Assembly (NCBI GenBank): GCA_012031415.1
Contig: JAAUTN010000002.1
Span: 1-64,000 of the forward strand
Direction of reading: 5' to 3'
Source of the DNA: Leptolyngbyaceae cyanobacterium SM1_4_3
GTDB lineage: Bacteria; Cyanobacteriota; Cyanobacteriia; Elainellales; Elainellaceae
DNA length: 64,000 bases
Each line of letters begins with the position of its first letter. Positions within the stretch are counted from its first letter, which is position 1. Below are positions 17,065 through 63,048 of this stretch, one piece after another. The position numbers and the translations under genes were made by a program. The notes beneath the pieces are model-generated. The model was not told where the DNA came from. It searched no databases and was given only the letters and a program-made list of their open reading frames with translations.

Positions 17065-17087
17065 AGGGATGAGGGATGAGGGATGAA
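17065..17087. repeat. STRR heptanucleotide repeat (GGGATGA)3
   Basis: Three tandem copies of GGGATGA lie a few bases upstream of the LigB-like start codon. This is the same heptamer (other strand) as at 1605. Confidence 0.85.
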
Positions 17088-18898: not shown

Positions 18899-19774
18899 AT
18901 GGCGCAACTGAGTCAACGTCGTCCTCAAAACGTGAGTGGCGATTTCTACGTCGATCGCTCCTGCATTGACTGTGATACCTGCCGCTGGATGGCTCCAGAG
19001 GTCTTTCATGAAGCTGGAGATCAGTCTGCTGTTCACCATCAGCCGACGAACGAGGCAGAACGACTGCGGGCAATGCAGGCACTACTGGCTTGCCCAACCG
19101 CTTCGATTGGCACGGTAGAAAAACCGACTGACATTAAGCAGGCTCAGGCAAGTTTCCCGATTTTGGTCGAAGATTCGGTCTATCACTGCGGCTATCATGC
19201 CGAGAATTCCTTTGGCGCTGCCAGTTACTTTATTCAAAGACCAGAAGGAAACGTGCTGGTTGATTCGCCCCGCTTTGCCCCGCCCTTAGTGAAACGGCTA
19301 GAGCAACTGGGCGGAATTCGTTACCTTTATTTGACACATCAGGATGATGTCGCCGATCATCAGAAGTTTCACGATCATTTTGGCTGCGATCGCATTCTCC
19401 ACAAGGACGACATTAACCGGGGCACACAGTCGGTCGAGATTCAGCTATCTGGCACGGAACCCACACCGCTCACCGCTGATTTGCTGATTATCCCTGTTCC
19501 CGGCCATACCAAAGGGCACACGGTTTTGCTGTACGATAACAAGTTTTTGTTTACAGGCGATCACCTTGCCTGGTCAAACGAGCTAAACCACCTCTACGCC
19601 TTTCGCCGCGCCTGCTGGTATTCCTGGACAGAGTTAATCCGCTCAATGGAAAAGCTGGCAAACTACTCCTTTGAATGGGTATTGCCTGGTCATGGTCGCC
19701 GCTTGCATGGCGATCGCAAAATTATGCATCAGCAAATGCAGCAGTGTCTTGAATGGATGAAGGATGAGGGATGA
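18899..19774 (+). CDS. Ferredoxin-MBL fusion: N-terminal [4Fe-4S] domain plus metallo-beta-lactamase fold
   Basis: Residues 1 to about 75 form a single-cluster ferredoxin domain: SCIDCDTCRWMAP gives CxxCxxC and LLACPTASIG gives the fourth Cys. The rest, about residues 85-290, is a metallo-beta-lactamase fold with THQDDVADHQKF (an HxHxDH variant with Thr-His-Gln-Asp-Asp), PVPGHTKGH, FTGDHLAW and VLPGHGRR. The metal site is therefore largely conserved. Such fusions suggest a redox-linked hydrolase or oxygenase-type activity; the substrate is unknown. The gene starts at ATG 18899, after a GAGGTGCAGCT ribosome-binding region. Its last codons (WMKDEG) are made by the STRR repeat, so the original C-terminus may have been altered. 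Confidence 0.88.
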   Translation: MAQLSQRRPQNVSGDFYVDRSCIDCDTCRWMAPEVFHEAGDQSAVHHQPTNEAERLRAMQALLACPTASIGTVEKPTDIKQAQASFPILVEDSVYHCGYHAENSFGAASYFIQRPEGNVLVDSPRFAPPLVKRLEQLGGIRYLYLTHQDDVADHQKFHDHFGCDRILHKDDINRGTQSVEIQLSGTEPTPLTADLLIIPVPGHTKGHTVLLYDNKFLFTGDHLAWSNELNHLYAFRRACWYSWTELIRSMEKLANYSFEWVLPGHGRRLHGDRKIMHQQMQQCLEWMKDEG

Positions 19775-19788
19775 GGGATGAGGGATGA
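19755..19788. repeat. STRR heptanucleotide repeat overlapping a stop codon
   Basis: GGATGA-type heptamers (about four copies of GGGATGA) run through the 3' end of the Fd-MBL gene and supply its last residues and stop. An inverted partner (CCTCATCCC) sits at 19803, so the pair can form a hairpin. Confidence 0.85.
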
Positions 19789-19910
19789 AAGGCTGCTTCA
19801 TTCCTCATCCCTTTAAAGGTGCGGTAACTTCGACTCTTCAAGCCAGAAAATCAAGACTAGTATTGAAATGTGGCGATCGCCAGATAACCATCACTTTTGG
19901 GAAAAATCGG

Positions 19911-40309: not shown

Positions 40310-40350
40310 TTGCGTAGGTTGGGTAAAGCAAAGCGGAACCCAACCTACGG
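40310..40350. repeat. Inverted repeat TAGGTTGGG..CCCAACCTA
   Basis: GTAGGTTGGGTAAAGC and its near-complement GGAACCCAACCTAC form a hairpin after the FKBP gene. The same sequence type occurs at 54791 and in part near 43740. It is a widespread cyanobacterial repeat and may double as a terminator. Confidence 0.65.
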
Positions 40351-42894: not shown

Positions 42895-43410
42895 CTACTG
42901 AATGCTAGCGCTGCTTGAACCTCCCAGGACGGCGTAACCCATCGTTGCGTTAGCCATGCGACACCAGATTGATACTGATTTGAACTCTGATAAATCGACT
43001 GAATCTGGAATGGGATAACGTTGTTCACCCGTAACGCTTTGCAGTGCCCCCAAGTTTACAAAGCTGCCGAAATCAGTGTAGCTACCGGGTGGAACTTCAG
43101 ATGTTTCTAGCACAACGTGTAAATCAGGAGCCATATCAGTCGTGCTGAAGGCAGAATCTAGCACTACATACCGCTGTCCGTCTTCTTCAATGATTTGAGC
43201 AGTTCCTGTGGTGGGAGCCTCCGCTGCAACAAAAGTTCCGGCAAGGGCAATGACAGACTCACTTTGAGCAACTAAGCTCTCAGTTGCAGTAACCGATCCG
43301 AGAGTTTCATGGACAGGATTAGCAATAGCAGCAGCAATTGAAAGCGCTGAAGCCAAAACTGAAACCATGCCAATCACAATTGAATGACGCTTAATTGACT
43401 TGAGCTTCAT
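42895..43410 (-). CDS. DM13-domain exported protein
   Basis: This 171-residue protein has an N-terminal signal (IGMVSVLASALSIAAAIANP) and one DM13 domain: AGTFVAAEAPTTGTAQIIEE, YVVLDSAFSTTDMAPDLHVV, QRYPIPDSVDLSEFKSVSIW with the conserved Cys in WCRMANATMGYAVL. DM13 is proposed to be a redox (electron-transfer) domain with its Cys residue as the key site. It is probably periplasmic. A second DM13 gene lies at 47912, and an NDH-2/DoxX pair lies next door, which fits an electron-transfer theme. The start at 43410 is unambiguous. Confidence 0.87.
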   Translation of the reverse strand: MKLKSIKRHSIVIGMVSVLASALSIAAAIANPVHETLGSVTATESLVAQSESVIALAGTFVAAEAPTTGTAQIIEEDGQRYVVLDSAFSTTDMAPDLHVVLETSEVPPGSYTDFGSFVNLGALQSVTGEQRYPIPDSVDLSEFKSVSIWCRMANATMGYAVLGGSSSASIQ

Positions 43411-43828
43411 GCTAGAAACCTCTCTTAGTTAGAATATTGCTGGAATAAACTACCGTTTAGGCGATCGCACTAACCGATGAATGGATGGCAAAAATGAGGG
43501 TTGCCTGAGTTAGCCTTGAGAATTCTCAGAAAGGAGCGTCAAATACAGGAAGCTTTTATCTTTCCTTGCGGATACAAGCAGCCTTGAGGTAACGCAAAAC
43601 TCACAAGACTTAAACGAAGTATCTGTGCTGGAGTCAGTTTTGTGGAAAAAGATGGTATTGAAGTTAAGAGAAAACTTATGTTTAATATATCGATCTGGCG
43701 TGTAACATCGTACTAAATTGCTTTCCAGGAGAAGCTGTAGGCTAGGTTGAGGTACGAAACCCAACGTGAATTCCTATGAGTGTCGGATTCGCTATGCTCA
43801 ATCCAGCCCAGCCTACTAAGGGCAATCG

Positions 43829-44099
43829 CACCTCTAAGTGAGGATAACATCACTTAAAACTACGTGAACGTCGCTTAGAACTGCGTTATCGTACTTTCAA
43901 GTGAGGAACACGTTGCTTAGAACTGCGCGAACGTTACTTAGAACTGCGCGAACGTTACTTAGAACTGCATGAACGTCACTTAGAACTGCGTGAACGTCAC
44001 TTAGAACTGCGTGAACGTACTTTCAAGTGAGGAACACGTTGCTTAGAACTGCGCGATCGCACTTCTAGGTGAGAATAACATTATTTAAAAACTACGCAA
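43829..44099. repeat. Tandem array of about 13 units of about 21 bp
   Basis: Two alternating unit types share length and the ACTT start: type b, ACTTAGAACTGCGTGAACGT, and type a, ACTTTCAAGTGAGGAACACGT. The order is a-b-b-a-b-b-b-b-b-a-b-a-b, with the central b units nearly identical and both ends degenerate. It occupies much of the long gap 43411-44196 upstream of the cellulose-synthase-like gene. A 21-bp step equals two DNA turns and seven codons, and one frame of the centre reads LELRERH-type heptads without a start. It is not a CRISPR: there are no unique spacers. Confidence 0.85.
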
Positions 44100-44196
44100 A
44101 TAAGTTTACCCTTAAAGTTTTCCTTATCTTCAAGTGCAAGATAGACCTGAGCAATAGGAATATTTGACAGAATTCTGGGAAGCTCTGGGTAAATCG

Positions 44197-46470
44197 ATGA
44201 CTGTAGAACCTCGCCGTTCCATCTCTATTCTGCGTCGCTGGAGAATGTCATCTCCTCACTTTGCAACCCTGCTAATGTTAGGGATTGTTGCTTTGTCAGG
44301 CATCATTACGGCTGCTTGGTTTGCTGGAGAGGGCACGATTAGTACCCTTTTTCAACGATTGGATCAGCTTCAGGCAAGCTCACCGATGTGGATTGAAGCG
44401 CCAATGATGGTTGGAAGCTATCTGCTGTTTTGGACGGTAGCACTGATGCTCGTCGTGATTGCAATCACAAAAATATCTCCACGACCGCGTACCTGGTCGA
44501 GAACGATAGTCGTGGGCATTCTGTTAATTCTGGCTATACGTTATTTGCTGTGGCGATCGCTCTCCACCCTCAACCTCAGCACTCCCCTGAACGGAGTGTT
44601 TAGCATTGGATTATTTTTAATGGAGTTACTGTTGCTGAGTGGCGGCATTATTCAACTCATGTTGCTATTGCGAACTCACGATCGCCGTCCCGAAGCCGAC
44701 CGCCTCTCACAAGCAGTCATTCACAAAACCTATCTGCCCACCATTGACATTCTAATTCCCACCTATAACGAACCTAACTTTATCTTGCGCCGCACTGTGA
44801 TCGGCTGTCAGGCGTTGGACTATGAGAAAAAAACAATTTATTTGCTTGATGACACTCGAAGACCAGAAGTGCAGGCATTAGCAGAAGAGTTGGGCTGTGA
44901 ATATCGGACGCGCCCCGACAATCGCCACGCCAAAGCCGGAAACTTGAACGATGCGATCGCCCACATCAGCGGCGAACTCATGGTTATCTTTGACGCTGAC
45001 TTTGTGCCGACTCGAAACTTCCTGACCCGCACAGTTGGCTTCTTTCAAGACCCACAGGTGGCGTTAGTGCAAACCCCTCAAACCTTCTACAATCCTGACC
45101 CGATCGCCCGCAACCTGGGTTTGGAAAATACACTGACACCCGATGAAGAAGTATTCTATCGACAGATTCAGCCGATTCGCGATGGTGTTGGGGGAGTGAT
45201 TTGTGCGGGAACATCATTTGTCGTGCGACGCTCGGCATTGACCGCAACCGGGTGCTTTGTCACCGAATCTCTAAGTGAAGACTATTTCACTGGAATTCGA
45301 CTGGCGGCAAATGGCTATCGAGTGCTTTACCTGAATGAAAAGTTAAGTGCAGGGCTAGCGGCTGAGAATATTGCGGTTCAGGCACTTCAGCGGACACGCT
45401 GGGCCCAGGGAACCTTGCAAGCCTTCTTCATTCAGTTCAACCCACTCACCGTTCCAGGGTTAGGGCCACTGCAACGGCTAGCGCACCTGGAAGGCTTGCT
45501 GCACTGGTTTACCAGCCCGGCCCGGGTAGGACTATTGTTTATCCCTCTCGCTTACGCTTTTCTAGGCGTGATTCCGATTCGGGCAACAGGCGCAGAGGTG
45601 CTGTATTTCTTCATTCCCTTCTACCTGGTGCAGCTTAGCGCATTCTCCTGGCTCAACTCACGTTCACGCTCTGCGGTGCTATCGGATGTTTACTCACTGG
45701 TGTTAGCCTTTCCGCTAGCAGTCACTGTGGTTAAAGTCATGCTTAATCCTTTTGGTAAAGGCTTTAAGGTGACTCCCAAAGGAGGGGTGAGCGATCGCTT
45801 CTCCTTTAACTGGCAGCTAGCCTTTCCGCTAATTGCCATGTTTGTTGTGACAGCAATCAGCCTGTGGACCAACCTGGGCACTTACCTACTCATGGGAAAC
45901 TGGCAGCCCAGTATGCCCCTAGAAGTGGCAGAACAGTTAAAGGGCATTGGTCTAGGCTGGGTTTGGAGTGCCTACAACTTGTTGATGTTGAGTATTGCTC
46001 TGCTAATTTTAGTGGATGTGCCCCGCACCAGTCCCTATGAATGGTATGATTTGCGGCGCACCACACGAGTTCAGGTCGGTGAGCAAACTTTTTGGGGATT
46101 CACCACTGCGATTTCAGAAATAGGTTTAGAAGTTACCCTGACTCAAACTCACTTTTTAGAAATGGGCGAAGTGAGAACGCTTCCAGTTCAAATAACGCTG
46201 ATGGAGGAAGAACTCACTTTTTCAGGACAGATCTCGCAGATTGATTTAGGTGGTGAATACCCGCTTGCAAAAGTTTTGTTTGCCCCCCTTAACTTACCTC
46301 AGCAACGGAGCCTGGTGGAACTGCTGTATTGCCGTCCAGGGCAGTGGAAGAATCGCTGCTCTCCCGGAGAGTTGGAATCTTTGGGATTGCTGCTTAAAAT
46401 CCTACTTAAACCGCGATTCTTGTTTGACCGTCAGGCAAACGTTAGGGCGATCGCCGTTTCCCACCATTGA
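44197..46470 (+). CDS. Cellulose-synthase-like family 2 glycosyltransferase with PilZ-like C-terminus
   Basis: The frame opens with TTG at 44164; the ATG at 44197 (MTVEPRRSISILRRW) is preferred. The 757-residue membrane enzyme has N-terminal helices, a GT2 catalytic domain with TYNEPNFILRRT, LLDDTRRPEV, the metal motif FDADFVP, SLSEDYFTG (SED where cellulose synthases usually have TED) and QRTRWAQG (the QxxRW motif). C-terminal helices follow, with a PilZ-like tail (RRTTRVQVGE, AISEIGLEVTL) suggestive of c-di-GMP control. It should polymerise a beta-glucan or similar polysaccharide. No bcsB or bcsC is nearby, so the polymer could also be something other than cellulose. The 21-bp array lies upstream. 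Confidence 0.9.
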   Translation: MTVEPRRSISILRRWRMSSPHFATLLMLGIVALSGIITAAWFAGEGTISTLFQRLDQLQASSPMWIEAPMMVGSYLLFWTVALMLVVIAITKISPRPRTWSRTIVVGILLILAIRYLLWRSLSTLNLSTPLNGVFSIGLFLMELLLLSGGIIQLMLLLRTHDRRPEADRLSQAVIHKTYLPTIDILIPTYNEPNFILRRTVIGCQALDYEKKTIYLLDDTRRPEVQALAEELGCEYRTRPDNRHAKAGNLNDAIAHISGELMVIFDADFVPTRNFLTRTVGFFQDPQVALVQTPQTFYNPDPIARNLGLENTLTPDEEVFYRQIQPIRDGVGGVICAGTSFVVRRSALTATGCFVTESLSEDYFTGIRLAANGYRVLYLNEKLSAGLAAENIAVQALQRTRWAQGTLQAFFIQFNPLTVPGLGPLQRLAHLEGLLHWFTSPARVGLLFIPLAYAFLGVIPIRATGAEVLYFFIPFYLVQLSAFSWLNSRSRSAVLSDVYSLVLAFPLAVTVVKVMLNPFGKGFKVTPKGGVSDRFSFNWQLAFPLIAMFVVTAISLWTNLGTYLLMGNWQPSMPLEVAEQLKGIGLGWVWSAYNLLMLSIALLILVDVPRTSPYEWYDLRRTTRVQVGEQTFWGFTTAISEIGLEVTLTQTHFLEMGEVRTLPVQITLMEEELTFSGQISQIDLGGEYPLAKVLFAPLNLPQQRSLVELLYCRPGQWKNRCSPGELESLGLLLKILLKPRFLFDRQANVRAIAVSHH

Positions 46471-47911: not shown

Positions 47912-48433
47912 ATGAAATTCACTTCACTCCTTATCCTGTCCAGTCTTCTCATCTTCTCCGTAGGCTGTTCCCCGGAAGCCGCTCAGCAGCCTGCAAGTGA
48001 CACGACCAGCCCTTCTGCTGAGACTGAGGCTGAACCTGAGATTGCGGCTGAACCTGAAGCCGCTGAATCCGCAGAGGCAACTACAAAATCTGGCACCTTT
48101 GTGCCTGGAGAAGCCCCAACCGAAGGAACCGTTCAAGTTGTGACTGAAAATGGAGAAAGTTATCTAGAGCTAGATGAATCCTTTAAAACCAGTGACCAGG
48201 GGCCCGATCTGTTTGTAATTTTGCATCGTTCTGATGATGTGCTGGCGACTACCGAGCCACCCGCTTACCCCTTAGAGGAGGGAGATTATGTCATTCTGGG
48301 GCCCCTTGAGGAGTTCACTGGCGCTCAGCGCTATCCAATTCCTGCGGAGGTGAATTTAGACGATTACCAGTCTGCTGTCATCTGGTGCCGCCAGTTTAAC
48401 GCCACGTTTGGAGTTGCTAAGTTGGAAGGCTAA
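47912..48433 (+). CDS. DM13-domain lipoprotein
   Basis: This 173-residue protein starts with a lipobox (LIFSVGC, Cys19), then a Glu/Ala/Pro/Thr-rich linker of about 45 residues and one DM13 domain (SGTFVPGEAPTEGTVQVVTE, DESFKTSDQGPDLFVILHRS, QRYPIPAEVNLDDYQSAVIW, conserved Cys in WCRQFNATFG). It is a paralogue of the protein at 42895. The linker suggests it reaches through the periplasm from the membrane. A role as an electron carrier with the adjacent flavin disulfide reductase is plausible but unproved. It is probably the last gene of the BcsA-like operon. Confidence 0.88.
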   Translation: MKFTSLLILSSLLIFSVGCSPEAAQQPASDTTSPSAETEAEPEIAAEPEAAESAEATTKSGTFVPGEAPTEGTVQVVTENGESYLELDESFKTSDQGPDLFVILHRSDDVLATTEPPAYPLEEGDYVILGPLEEFTGAQRYPIPAEVNLDDYQSAVIWCRQFNATFGVAKLEG

Positions 48434-61170: not shown

Positions 61171-63048
61171 TTAAGCCTCCAACATCTGTAGGCGATACAG
61201 GCTGGCATATAGTCCGCCCTGCTCCAGCAACTCATCATGACTGCCCGACTCCACCAATCGTCCCTGTTTCAGAACTAAAATCCGATCGACCTTGCGAATC
61301 GTCGAGAGGCGGTGAGCAATAATGATCGCAGTCCGACCCACCAGCAGTTTATCTAAAGCCTGCTGAATCATGGCTTCCGTCCCTACATCCAGGTTAGCGG
61401 TCGCTTCATCCAACACCAGGATGGGCGGATTACGGATTGCCGCCCGCGCAAATGCCAAAAGCTGTTTTTGCCCGCCCGACAGGTTAGTGCCTCGCTCTCT
61501 CAGCGGCGTATCGTACCCTTCGGGCAATTGCTCAATGAAACTGGCAACGTTGGTTTGCTCTGCCGCTGCTTTAACTTGCTCAATCGAGTAGGTTTCTCCT
61601 AAGGCAATGTTGCTTTTGACATCGCCTGCAAACAAGAAGCCATCCTGCAAAATCACAGCCATGCGGCGGCGCAGTTCTGCCTGGGGCATTTCTCGCACGT
61701 CAACGTTGTCCAACAAAATCTGCCCTCGATTAATTTCATACAGTCGGCAAAGCAAGCGGATAATTGAGCTTTTTCCTGCTCCTGTTGGCCCAACCAGCGC
61801 CACTTTTTCACCAGGGCGAATGGTGAAATCTAAATCTCGTAAAACATATTCATCGGGTTTATAGCCGAACCAGACGTGTTTGAAGCGAATTTCACCGGGA
61901 CGGGAGGAAGGGGAAAGGGATGAGGGATGAGGGATGAGGGATGAGGGATGAGGAGAGGAGAGTTTAGAGTCGGTTGAGGGGGGAGTGCGAAGAGTAGGGG
62001 GTTCGGGGTCGCGGATTTCGATGGGTTCGTTGAGGATATCGCTGACTCGCTCTAGAGCGGTAAATCCGGCTTGAATAGCGGTGAATCGTTCGGCAAATTG
62101 GCGCAGCGGATTAAATAGGCGTTGGGCAAAGAGAATGAAGGTTGCCAGGTCTCCCAGAGGTAAGCTATTTTGCAGCACAAGTAAGCCGCCCAGCCAGAGA
62201 ACGCCGCCGATCGCCACTAGCGCAATCCACTCTAGCGTAGCTGAAACGGCTGAGTCGTAGAAGATAGTTTTGTCAACTTCGGCAACGTACCGGCGGTTGA
62301 TGGTGCGAAACAGTTCAGAGTTAAATTGCTCTCGGCGAAAAAGTTGAACGACACCAATGCCAACGATATTTTCTTGCAGAGTAGAGTTGAGCGCAGAAAG
62401 TTCTTCTCGCGCTTTGTAGTTGGCGATGCGAAACTGATGCTGAAAGAAAATCGTCAGACCCGTCACCGGAATCAACATCAGCACTAGCATCAGGGCAAGC
62501 TGCCACTGTCGAGTAAACATGATGACGGTGATGACCAGCATCGAAAACAGGTCGCTGACGATGCCGATCGCCCCGGTTGAAAACACATCTCCTAGCGCAT
62601 CTACATCACTGGTGAGGCGCGTAATCAGTCGGCCGACGGGAGTGCGATCAAAAAATCGGGCGGCAAGGGACGTGACATGATGAAATAAATCATCCCGAAT
62701 TGCAGCCGTGATTCGCTGTCCGACCTTTTGAATCAGGTAGCCCTGCAAGCCGTCCAGCGTCAGCCGAACGGCGATCGTGAACATCAGCAAAATGACCAGG
62801 ATGTTAAGCCCTTGAGAGAGCGATCGCCCTTCCAAAAACCACATCACCGGGTCATCTCGCAGCAGAGAAACTGCCTGCCCCACTAGAATCGGCTGAACGG
62901 CTTCTGCTAAGGAAAGCGGCACGAGGAAAGTGAGGGCGATCGCCAACAATCGCTTATTTCGCAGCGCATAGGGAACTAGCCGCAGTAAAAGTCGCCAGTC
63001 TGTTTCTTGAACCCGCTTTTTCTGACCCTCTGTGGTCGTGCTGGTCAT
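61171..63048 (-). CDS. ABC exporter half-transporter (membrane domain fused to ATPase)
   Basis: This 625-residue protein has a six-helix type IV (exporter) membrane domain (starting LLRLVPYALRNKRLLAIALT) and a C-terminal ATPase with Walker A VGPTGAGKSSI, signature LSGGQKQLL, Walker B ILVLDEATANLD and the H-loop IIAHRLSTI. It would form a homodimer in the plasma membrane. The substrate is unknown; lipids, peptides or drugs are typical. An STRR heptamer repeat lies in frame in the linker between the domains and encodes SSPHPSSLIPHPSSLS. The ATPase motifs are intact. The downstream hypothetical gene starts immediately after the stop. Confidence 0.95.
   Translation of the reverse strand: MTSTTTEGQKKRVQETDWRLLLRLVPYALRNKRLLAIALTFLVPLSLAEAVQPILVGQAVSLLRDDPVMWFLEGRSLSQGLNILVILLMFTIAVRLTLDGLQGYLIQKVGQRITAAIRDDLFHHVTSLAARFFDRTPVGRLITRLTSDVDALGDVFSTGAIGIVSDLFSMLVITVIMFTRQWQLALMLVLMLIPVTGLTIFFQHQFRIANYKAREELSALNSTLQENIVGIGVVQLFRREQFNSELFRTINRRYVAEVDKTIFYDSAVSATLEWIALVAIGGVLWLGGLLVLQNSLPLGDLATFILFAQRLFNPLRQFAERFTAIQAGFTALERVSDILNEPIEIRDPEPPTLRTPPSTDSKLSSPHPSSLIPHPSSLSPSSRPGEIRFKHVWFGYKPDEYVLRDLDFTIRPGEKVALVGPTGAGKSSIIRLLCRLYEINRGQILLDNVDVREMPQAELRRRMAVILQDGFLFAGDVKSNIALGETYSIEQVKAAAEQTNVASFIEQLPEGYDTPLRERGTNLSGGQKQLLAFARAAIRNPPILVLDEATANLDVGTEAMIQQALDKLLVGRTAIIIAHRLSTIRKVDRILVLKQGRLVESGSHDELLEQGGLYASLYRLQMLEA
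61918..61952. repeat. In-frame STRR heptanucleotide repeat within the ABC exporter gene
   Basis: About five copies of GGGATGA run through the codons for the linker between membrane and ATPase domains. Three heptamers equal seven codons, so repeat gains or losses in multiples of three keep the frame. Confidence 0.9.

Follow-up and report, generated by a model that had tools for sequence, protein, structure and literature searches.

A tandem array of inverted 21-bp units upstream of a cyanobacterial cellulose-synthase-like gene and its relation to constant-size bacterial satellites

Several bacterial repeat systems share features with short-period intergenic arrays. BIME and REP sequences of enterobacteria cluster between genes as palindromic units whose orientation alternates, and are candidate protein sites. 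Plasmid iterons are tandem sites of ~21 bp that lie on one face of the helix, 21 bp being two turns of the double helix. A third class, described by Subirana and Messeguer, comprises bacterial tandem repeats of constant size (20–21 or 52 nt) and variable sequence that are mostly non-coding (PMC8161180, which cites the same authors' 2020 paper in J Bacteriol). This class includes related 40–41-nt forms and several same-size families per genome, and has also been reported in Cyanobacteria (PMC8161180). In the published account the function of the 20–21-nt class is unexplained and there is no sequence conservation between species; its authors note that ~21 bp corresponds to two helical turns and propose either a protein that polymerises on DNA or small RNAs (PMC8161180). 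The 52-nt satellites of B. coagulans have RNA-seq evidence of transcription (PMC8161180, PMC8625621).

Here we describe an array within a 64,000-nucleotide stretch of DNA from Leptolyngbyaceae cyanobacterium SM1_4_3 (contig JAAUTN010000002.1; hereafter the window) that fits the 20–21-nt satellite class. Its 13 units of exactly 21 bp have the size and regularity of the class (20–21 nt, at least four units), and it is non-coding, with stops in all six frames across the whole array and no frame shared with related arrays. It also belongs to a set of several families, with differing consensus sequences at the same period in G001, the genome of another species of the same genus, and further arrays or matches at contigs C279, C600, C530 and C372 of the source genome (G000). 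Forms resembling the 40–41-nt repeats are present as well. Unlike the published class, the units show dyad symmetry and face both ways in a single array, their period is 21 or 42 bp exactly, and a core is recognisable within the genus and in other phyla; the lack of sequence conservation in the published account is its authors' description and not a criterion for membership. The array resembles BIME and REP clusters in being an intergenic cluster of palindromic units in alternating orientation, but its sequence is different, its period is fixed at 21 bp, and little dispersal of solitary units is seen. In contrast to iterons, its neighbors are DM13 and glycosyltransferase genes with no replication gene nearby, and it has no phage or plasmid match, so that an origin from either was rejected.

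Anatomy of the array and its locus

The array lies between two divergent genes. The features of the locus are as follows.

42895–43410, minus strand: divergent upstream gene for a DM13-domain protein
43737–43816, no strand assigned: short element with inverted repeats (GTAGGCTAGGTTGAG...CTCAATCCAGCCCAGCCTAC), belonging to a dispersed GTTGGGT-type family, separate from the array and in the same variable slot
43832–44104, no strand assigned: tandem array of 13 units of exactly 21 bp, in the order a-b-b-a-b-b-b-b-b-a-b-a-b
43832–43873, plus strand: first a-b dyad (CTCTAAGTGAGGATAACATCA / CTTAAAACTACGTGAACGTCG), further diverged than the interior
43895–43936, plus strand: second a-b dyad, part of model R1
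43916–44020, plus strand: five b units in direct succession (consensus CTTAGAACTGCGTGAACGTCA), more homogeneous than any other section
44021–44062, plus strand: third a-b dyad
44052–44059, no strand assigned: GCGATCGC, a perfect HIP1 octamer and palindrome at one b/a junction
44063–44104, plus strand: fourth and terminal a-b dyad, like the first (ATAACAT...TTAAAA..CTACG)
44164–46470, plus strand: downstream glycosyltransferase family 2 / cellulose-synthase-like gene (PF13641, PF03552), likely ATG at 44197

Cutting the sequence every 21 bp from position 43832 yields 13 units ending at 44104, in perfect register and with zero indels between units. This is exactly the unit order proposed in the initial annotation, which counted about 13 units. 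Tandem Repeats Finder reports periods of 21, 42 and 63 over 43846–44064, and the array reaches z ~13 in the periodicity scan. In the near-identical genome G002 all 13 units recur, with two substitutions and zero indels, and there is no obvious copy-number artefact of the kind that assembly collapse, raised as a concern in the initial annotation, would produce.

Cyanobacterial short tandemly repeated repetitive (STRR) sequences and HIP1 invite comparison, as they occur in the same genomes, 21 is three times seven, and GCGATCGC lies at the b/a junctions, perfect at one and in degenerate HIP1-like form at the remaining ones. However, identity within the array is 0.57 at lag 21 and 0.20–0.23 at lags 7 and 14. 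The array is therefore not a disguised heptamer repeat, and an STRR origin is ruled out by its lag-7 identity of 0.20. Heptanucleotide tandem repeats of the usual STRR type (TCATCCC, AGGGATG, TGAAGGA) are present elsewhere in the window, at 1601–1648, 17065–17086, 19750–19789 and 61909–61953.

The two unit types alternate as first reported, and are roughly inverted copies of each other rather than unrelated sequences. When the a consensus, TTCTAAGTGAGGATAACATTA, is set against the b consensus in reverse complement, the best circular phase gives 14 identical positions out of 21 (p = 0.0015, shuffled b reaching 14/21 in 0.15% of trials), versus 10 of 21 in direct comparison. Thus, a and b represent, for the most part, a single unit in opposite orientations, each a-b pair forming a 42-bp dyad. 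Because the unit resembles its own reverse complement, it is seen as a, as the roughly inverted form b, and as the 42-bp pair a-b. Dyad symmetry at 42 bp is not equalled in any of 300 shuffles of the phase-averaged profile. The first and last dyads are like each other and unlike the interior units, as expected if the array grew from the inside.

The distance from the end of the array to the gene is 60 bp if translation starts at the TTG at 44164, and 93 bp if it starts, as is likely, at the ATG at 44197. Comparison of the locus within the genus reveals that the array is lineage-specific. G002 is 99% identical over 3.3 kb. G001 retains the divergent gene pair, with 89% protein identity for the glycosyltransferase, as well as intergenic DNA on both sides, upstream as far as ~43687 and, on the gene-proximal side, from ~44096 onwards (89%), but ~198 bp of unrelated DNA stands in place of the array; this orthologous site shows neither a clean empty site nor a target duplication. 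The array thus shares a variable slot with the 43737–43816 element and is no conserved regulatory component of the cellulose-synthase-like gene. The element directly upstream of the array is of the GTAGGTTGGGT...ACCCAACCTAC type, with a second copy in the window near 40314–40344, and its GTTGGGT-type family has many copies dispersed in the genus. A second DM13 gene lies at 47912–48433, so that a DM13 pair flanks a glycosyltransferase / pyridine-nucleotide oxidoreductase pair.

Related arrays and a recurring core

A second array of 42-bp a-b units is present in the source genome (C279:12052–12270). A sequence-only model built from nine dyads of the window and C279 loci (R1) identifies a 42-bp array in G001 (C73:271160, E 4e-6) that is absent from the orthologous site in both G000 and G002. 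Adding this array to the R1 loci (model R2) reveals further arrays at G002:C322 and G000:C600, and a weak match in another genus (G027:C77, E 0.003). Among the best 150 candidates per genome, pattern and model searches return arrays and few isolated matches, all of them weak or coding. Two kinds of candidate were set aside: single dispersed dyads in the source genome, where matches to the pattern with three mismatches fall in coding or unrelated sequence, and similarity matches with E 0.001–0.1 in other genera, which, judged from the few inspected, look like chance similarity around GCGATCGC. By crude ORF calls, the related arrays lie between 31 co-directional, 10 convergent and 6 divergent gene pairs, making divergent, promoter-rich settings the rarest. 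Beside the C279 array (L061:11200–11400) lie other dispersed repeats of ~97 bp, whose copies number in the dozens in G001 and G002.

Degenerate periodicity at lags 4–90 was surveyed in parts of four relatives of the source genome (1.2 Mb of G001 and 0.4 Mb each of G010, G014 and G003). The 196 kb of non-coding DNA in the G001 sample contains 17 periodic non-coding stretches; lag 21 is the commonest (7/17), one stretch has a period of 42, one of 20/41, and the rest are spread over 7, 12, 14, 32, 40 and 51. Two more 21-bp arrays in G001 lie beneath spurious ORFs (L157, L211). The 21-bp arrays of G001 differ in consensus sequence, and the same geometry thus recurs with different sequences at many loci. 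The initial annotation held that the same array scattered at many unrelated loci would indicate a simple mobile repeat; the class is indeed scattered, but as arrays of constant period and variable sequence rather than copies of one mobile sequence. Lag-21 arrays are rare or absent in the other genera scanned, and the 42-bp arrays of G010, which are C/G-rich palindromic repeats of another kind, were rejected as members. Some G001 arrays show a 7-bp sub-periodicity (lag-7 identity 0.43–0.45). It is clear in a 21-bp array at L141:8904–9090 (G001 C73; CCTCAGAACTCGAAACTTTGA), which suggests that some 21-bp arrays derive from heptamers. This array is located ~700 bp upstream of the G001 paralogue of the glycosyltransferase next to the window array, with a small ORF between.

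Dyad symmetry is common among these arrays. With a column shuffle and the better of two tests, 14 of 17 arrays reach p ≤ 0.03 at 21 or 42 bp, individual p values being approximate as the shuffle ignores neighbor composition and each array is tested twice; the exceptions are C279, G001_128 and G001_214, which show no significant dyad symmetry. Most of the 17 were chosen by periodicity, not by symmetry. Unit length is also steady. Compared with their own consensus, 15 arrays contain 826 substitutions and at most 27 indels, of which 8 come from the window array and are an artefact of aligning a units to the b consensus. Homologous flanking intergenic DNA of G000 and G001 differs by 47 mismatches and 5 gaps. 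The ratio of 826:27 against 47:5 hints at a constraint on length, although the test is weak and counts taken from a consensus are not independent; homogenisation between units could mimic a low indel count.

A common profile close to GTTTGAAAC-AG-GAACGTTC-CA recurs in several arrays. This core, which can also be written approximately as GTTTGAAAC-NN-GAACNTTC-NN, occurs in arrays from Nostocales, Acidobacteriota, Neomarinimicrobiota and a Eubacteriaceae metagenome-assembled genome (MAG). A 30-base degenerate pattern of the core, for which we estimate ~0.2 chance matches under uniform composition, matches 47 stretches in the GTDB genome collection, of which cyanobacteria (mainly Fischerella, Pelatocladus, Nostoc and Calothrix) account for 37, and has no match in viral contigs. 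Most of the cyanobacterial matches, together with the Acidobacteriota, Neomarinimicrobiota and Eubacteriaceae MAG matches, lie in extended 21-bp arrays; the 21-bp spacing is partly built into a pattern that spans 30 bases, whereas the extension over 200–500 bp is not. Matches in Flavobacteriia and Bacteroidales fall outside extended arrays and may be due to chance. Arrays with the same core are found at L246:4019–4606 (Acidobacteriota MAG), L278:5230–5516 (Neomarinimicrobiota MAG) and L252:3781–4060 (Eubacteriaceae MAG), and may stem from transfer, convergence or binning.

Within the family of the source organism, the core with three mismatches is found 49 times in G001, 38 times in G002 and 12 times in G000, versus 2, 5 and 2 matches for a reversed control; the matches are about equally divided between the two strands, and half of 36 genomes have none. 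The window array does not match the core directly (p = 0.43), and its profile is tied to it through the intermediates G001_134, G002_322 and G000_600. Two features, dyad symmetry in the 21-nt units and the cross-phylum core, appear to be new, as no earlier description was found in open-licence papers.

Explanations for the 21-bp arrays

The explanation that we tentatively favor, at somewhat short of an even chance, is that the array is a non-coding constant-size tandem repeat that serves as a two-turn-phased track of dyads for a putative oligomerising DNA-binding protein. The array would grow by tandem duplication and by switching of orientation at palindromes. The two-turn spacing would be kept because dyad sites recurring every 10.5 or 21 bp all face one side of the helix, which would let a candidate oligomerising (nucleoid-type) protein line up along the array. 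Its role would be in local chromosome architecture or insulation, and not in switching the neighboring glycosyltransferase gene. Almost as likely is a neutral origin by copying at palindromes. The array would then be an inert minisatellite, gained and lost as quasi-palindromes give rise to slippage and template switching, and its two-turn spacing would be a copying bias. In favor of this reading, presence and absence at orthologous sites are lineage-specific in both directions, interior units are more alike than the ends as in slippage arrays, the variable intergenic slot holds several repeats, the array among them, beside an inverted-repeat element, and gene context shows no preference. The absence of the array from the orthologous G001 site, and hence of long-term conservation of the window copy, likewise argues against a protein track. 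Neutral copying accounts less readily for the same period across differing sequences, for the few indels despite ~20–40% divergence from consensus, and for a core common to distant phyla.

Other explanations carry far less weight. A transcribed repeat RNA, either a long imperfect hairpin or an RNA or protein sponge comparable to the Bacillus satellites, would accord with the published proposal and the RNA-seq data for the 52-nt B. coagulans repeats (PMC8161180, PMC8625621), and dyad units permit long hairpins. It is nevertheless unlikely, since folding is only slightly better than shuffles on the two strands (z -1.9 and -1.6), compensatory changes and covariation show no excess over shuffles, and an Rfam search of the array returns no match above threshold; an RNA element is disfavored on these grounds. 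Still less probable is a cis-regulatory array for the divergent DM13 / cellulose-synthase-like pair. Its position 60–93 bp upstream of the gene start and its retention in the closest relative, G002, are in keeping with such a role, but the orthologous G001 pair lacks it despite conserved flanks, related arrays adjoin unrelated genes in every orientation and lie mostly between co-directional or convergent ones, and a promoter and terminator scan of the intergenic region found nothing. A single small mobile element, palindromic and REP/BIME- or SDR-like, of which the units were copies, would explain dyads that alternate in orientation like BIMEs and scattered intergenic occurrences; with few solitary units among the candidates scored, matches that come as arrays each with its own sequence, and no clean empty site or target duplication at the orthologous locus, this is very improbable. 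A decayed or cryptic coding repeat for a heptad coiled coil is scarcely credible: 21 is a multiple of 3 and the b run contains short open frames, but the LELRERH and VLSDVHA heptads read earlier are not open over the whole array, no frame is common to the related arrays, and a and b are inverted relative to one another. Of the three interpretations originally offered, a structural element or a series of protein sites aligned along one face of the helix is still the best guess; regulation of the cellulose-synthase-like gene is not supported, and a coiled-coil gene is rejected.

A broader and more doubtful extension, suggested by sequence comparison, is that 21-bp dyad arrays with the recurring core are tracks for a widespread putative oligomerising protein in cyanobacteria, acidobacteria and other phyla. 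If true, the existence of such a binding protein would account for the fixed unit size in this enigmatic class of satellites. The constant 20–21-nt length of these satellites is an open puzzle in the literature, and dyad symmetry together with the cross-phylum core offers a concrete probe. If the protein is found, the arrays would represent a new kind of chromosome-architecture track; if there is none, the class is probably a by-product of palindromic DNA copying.
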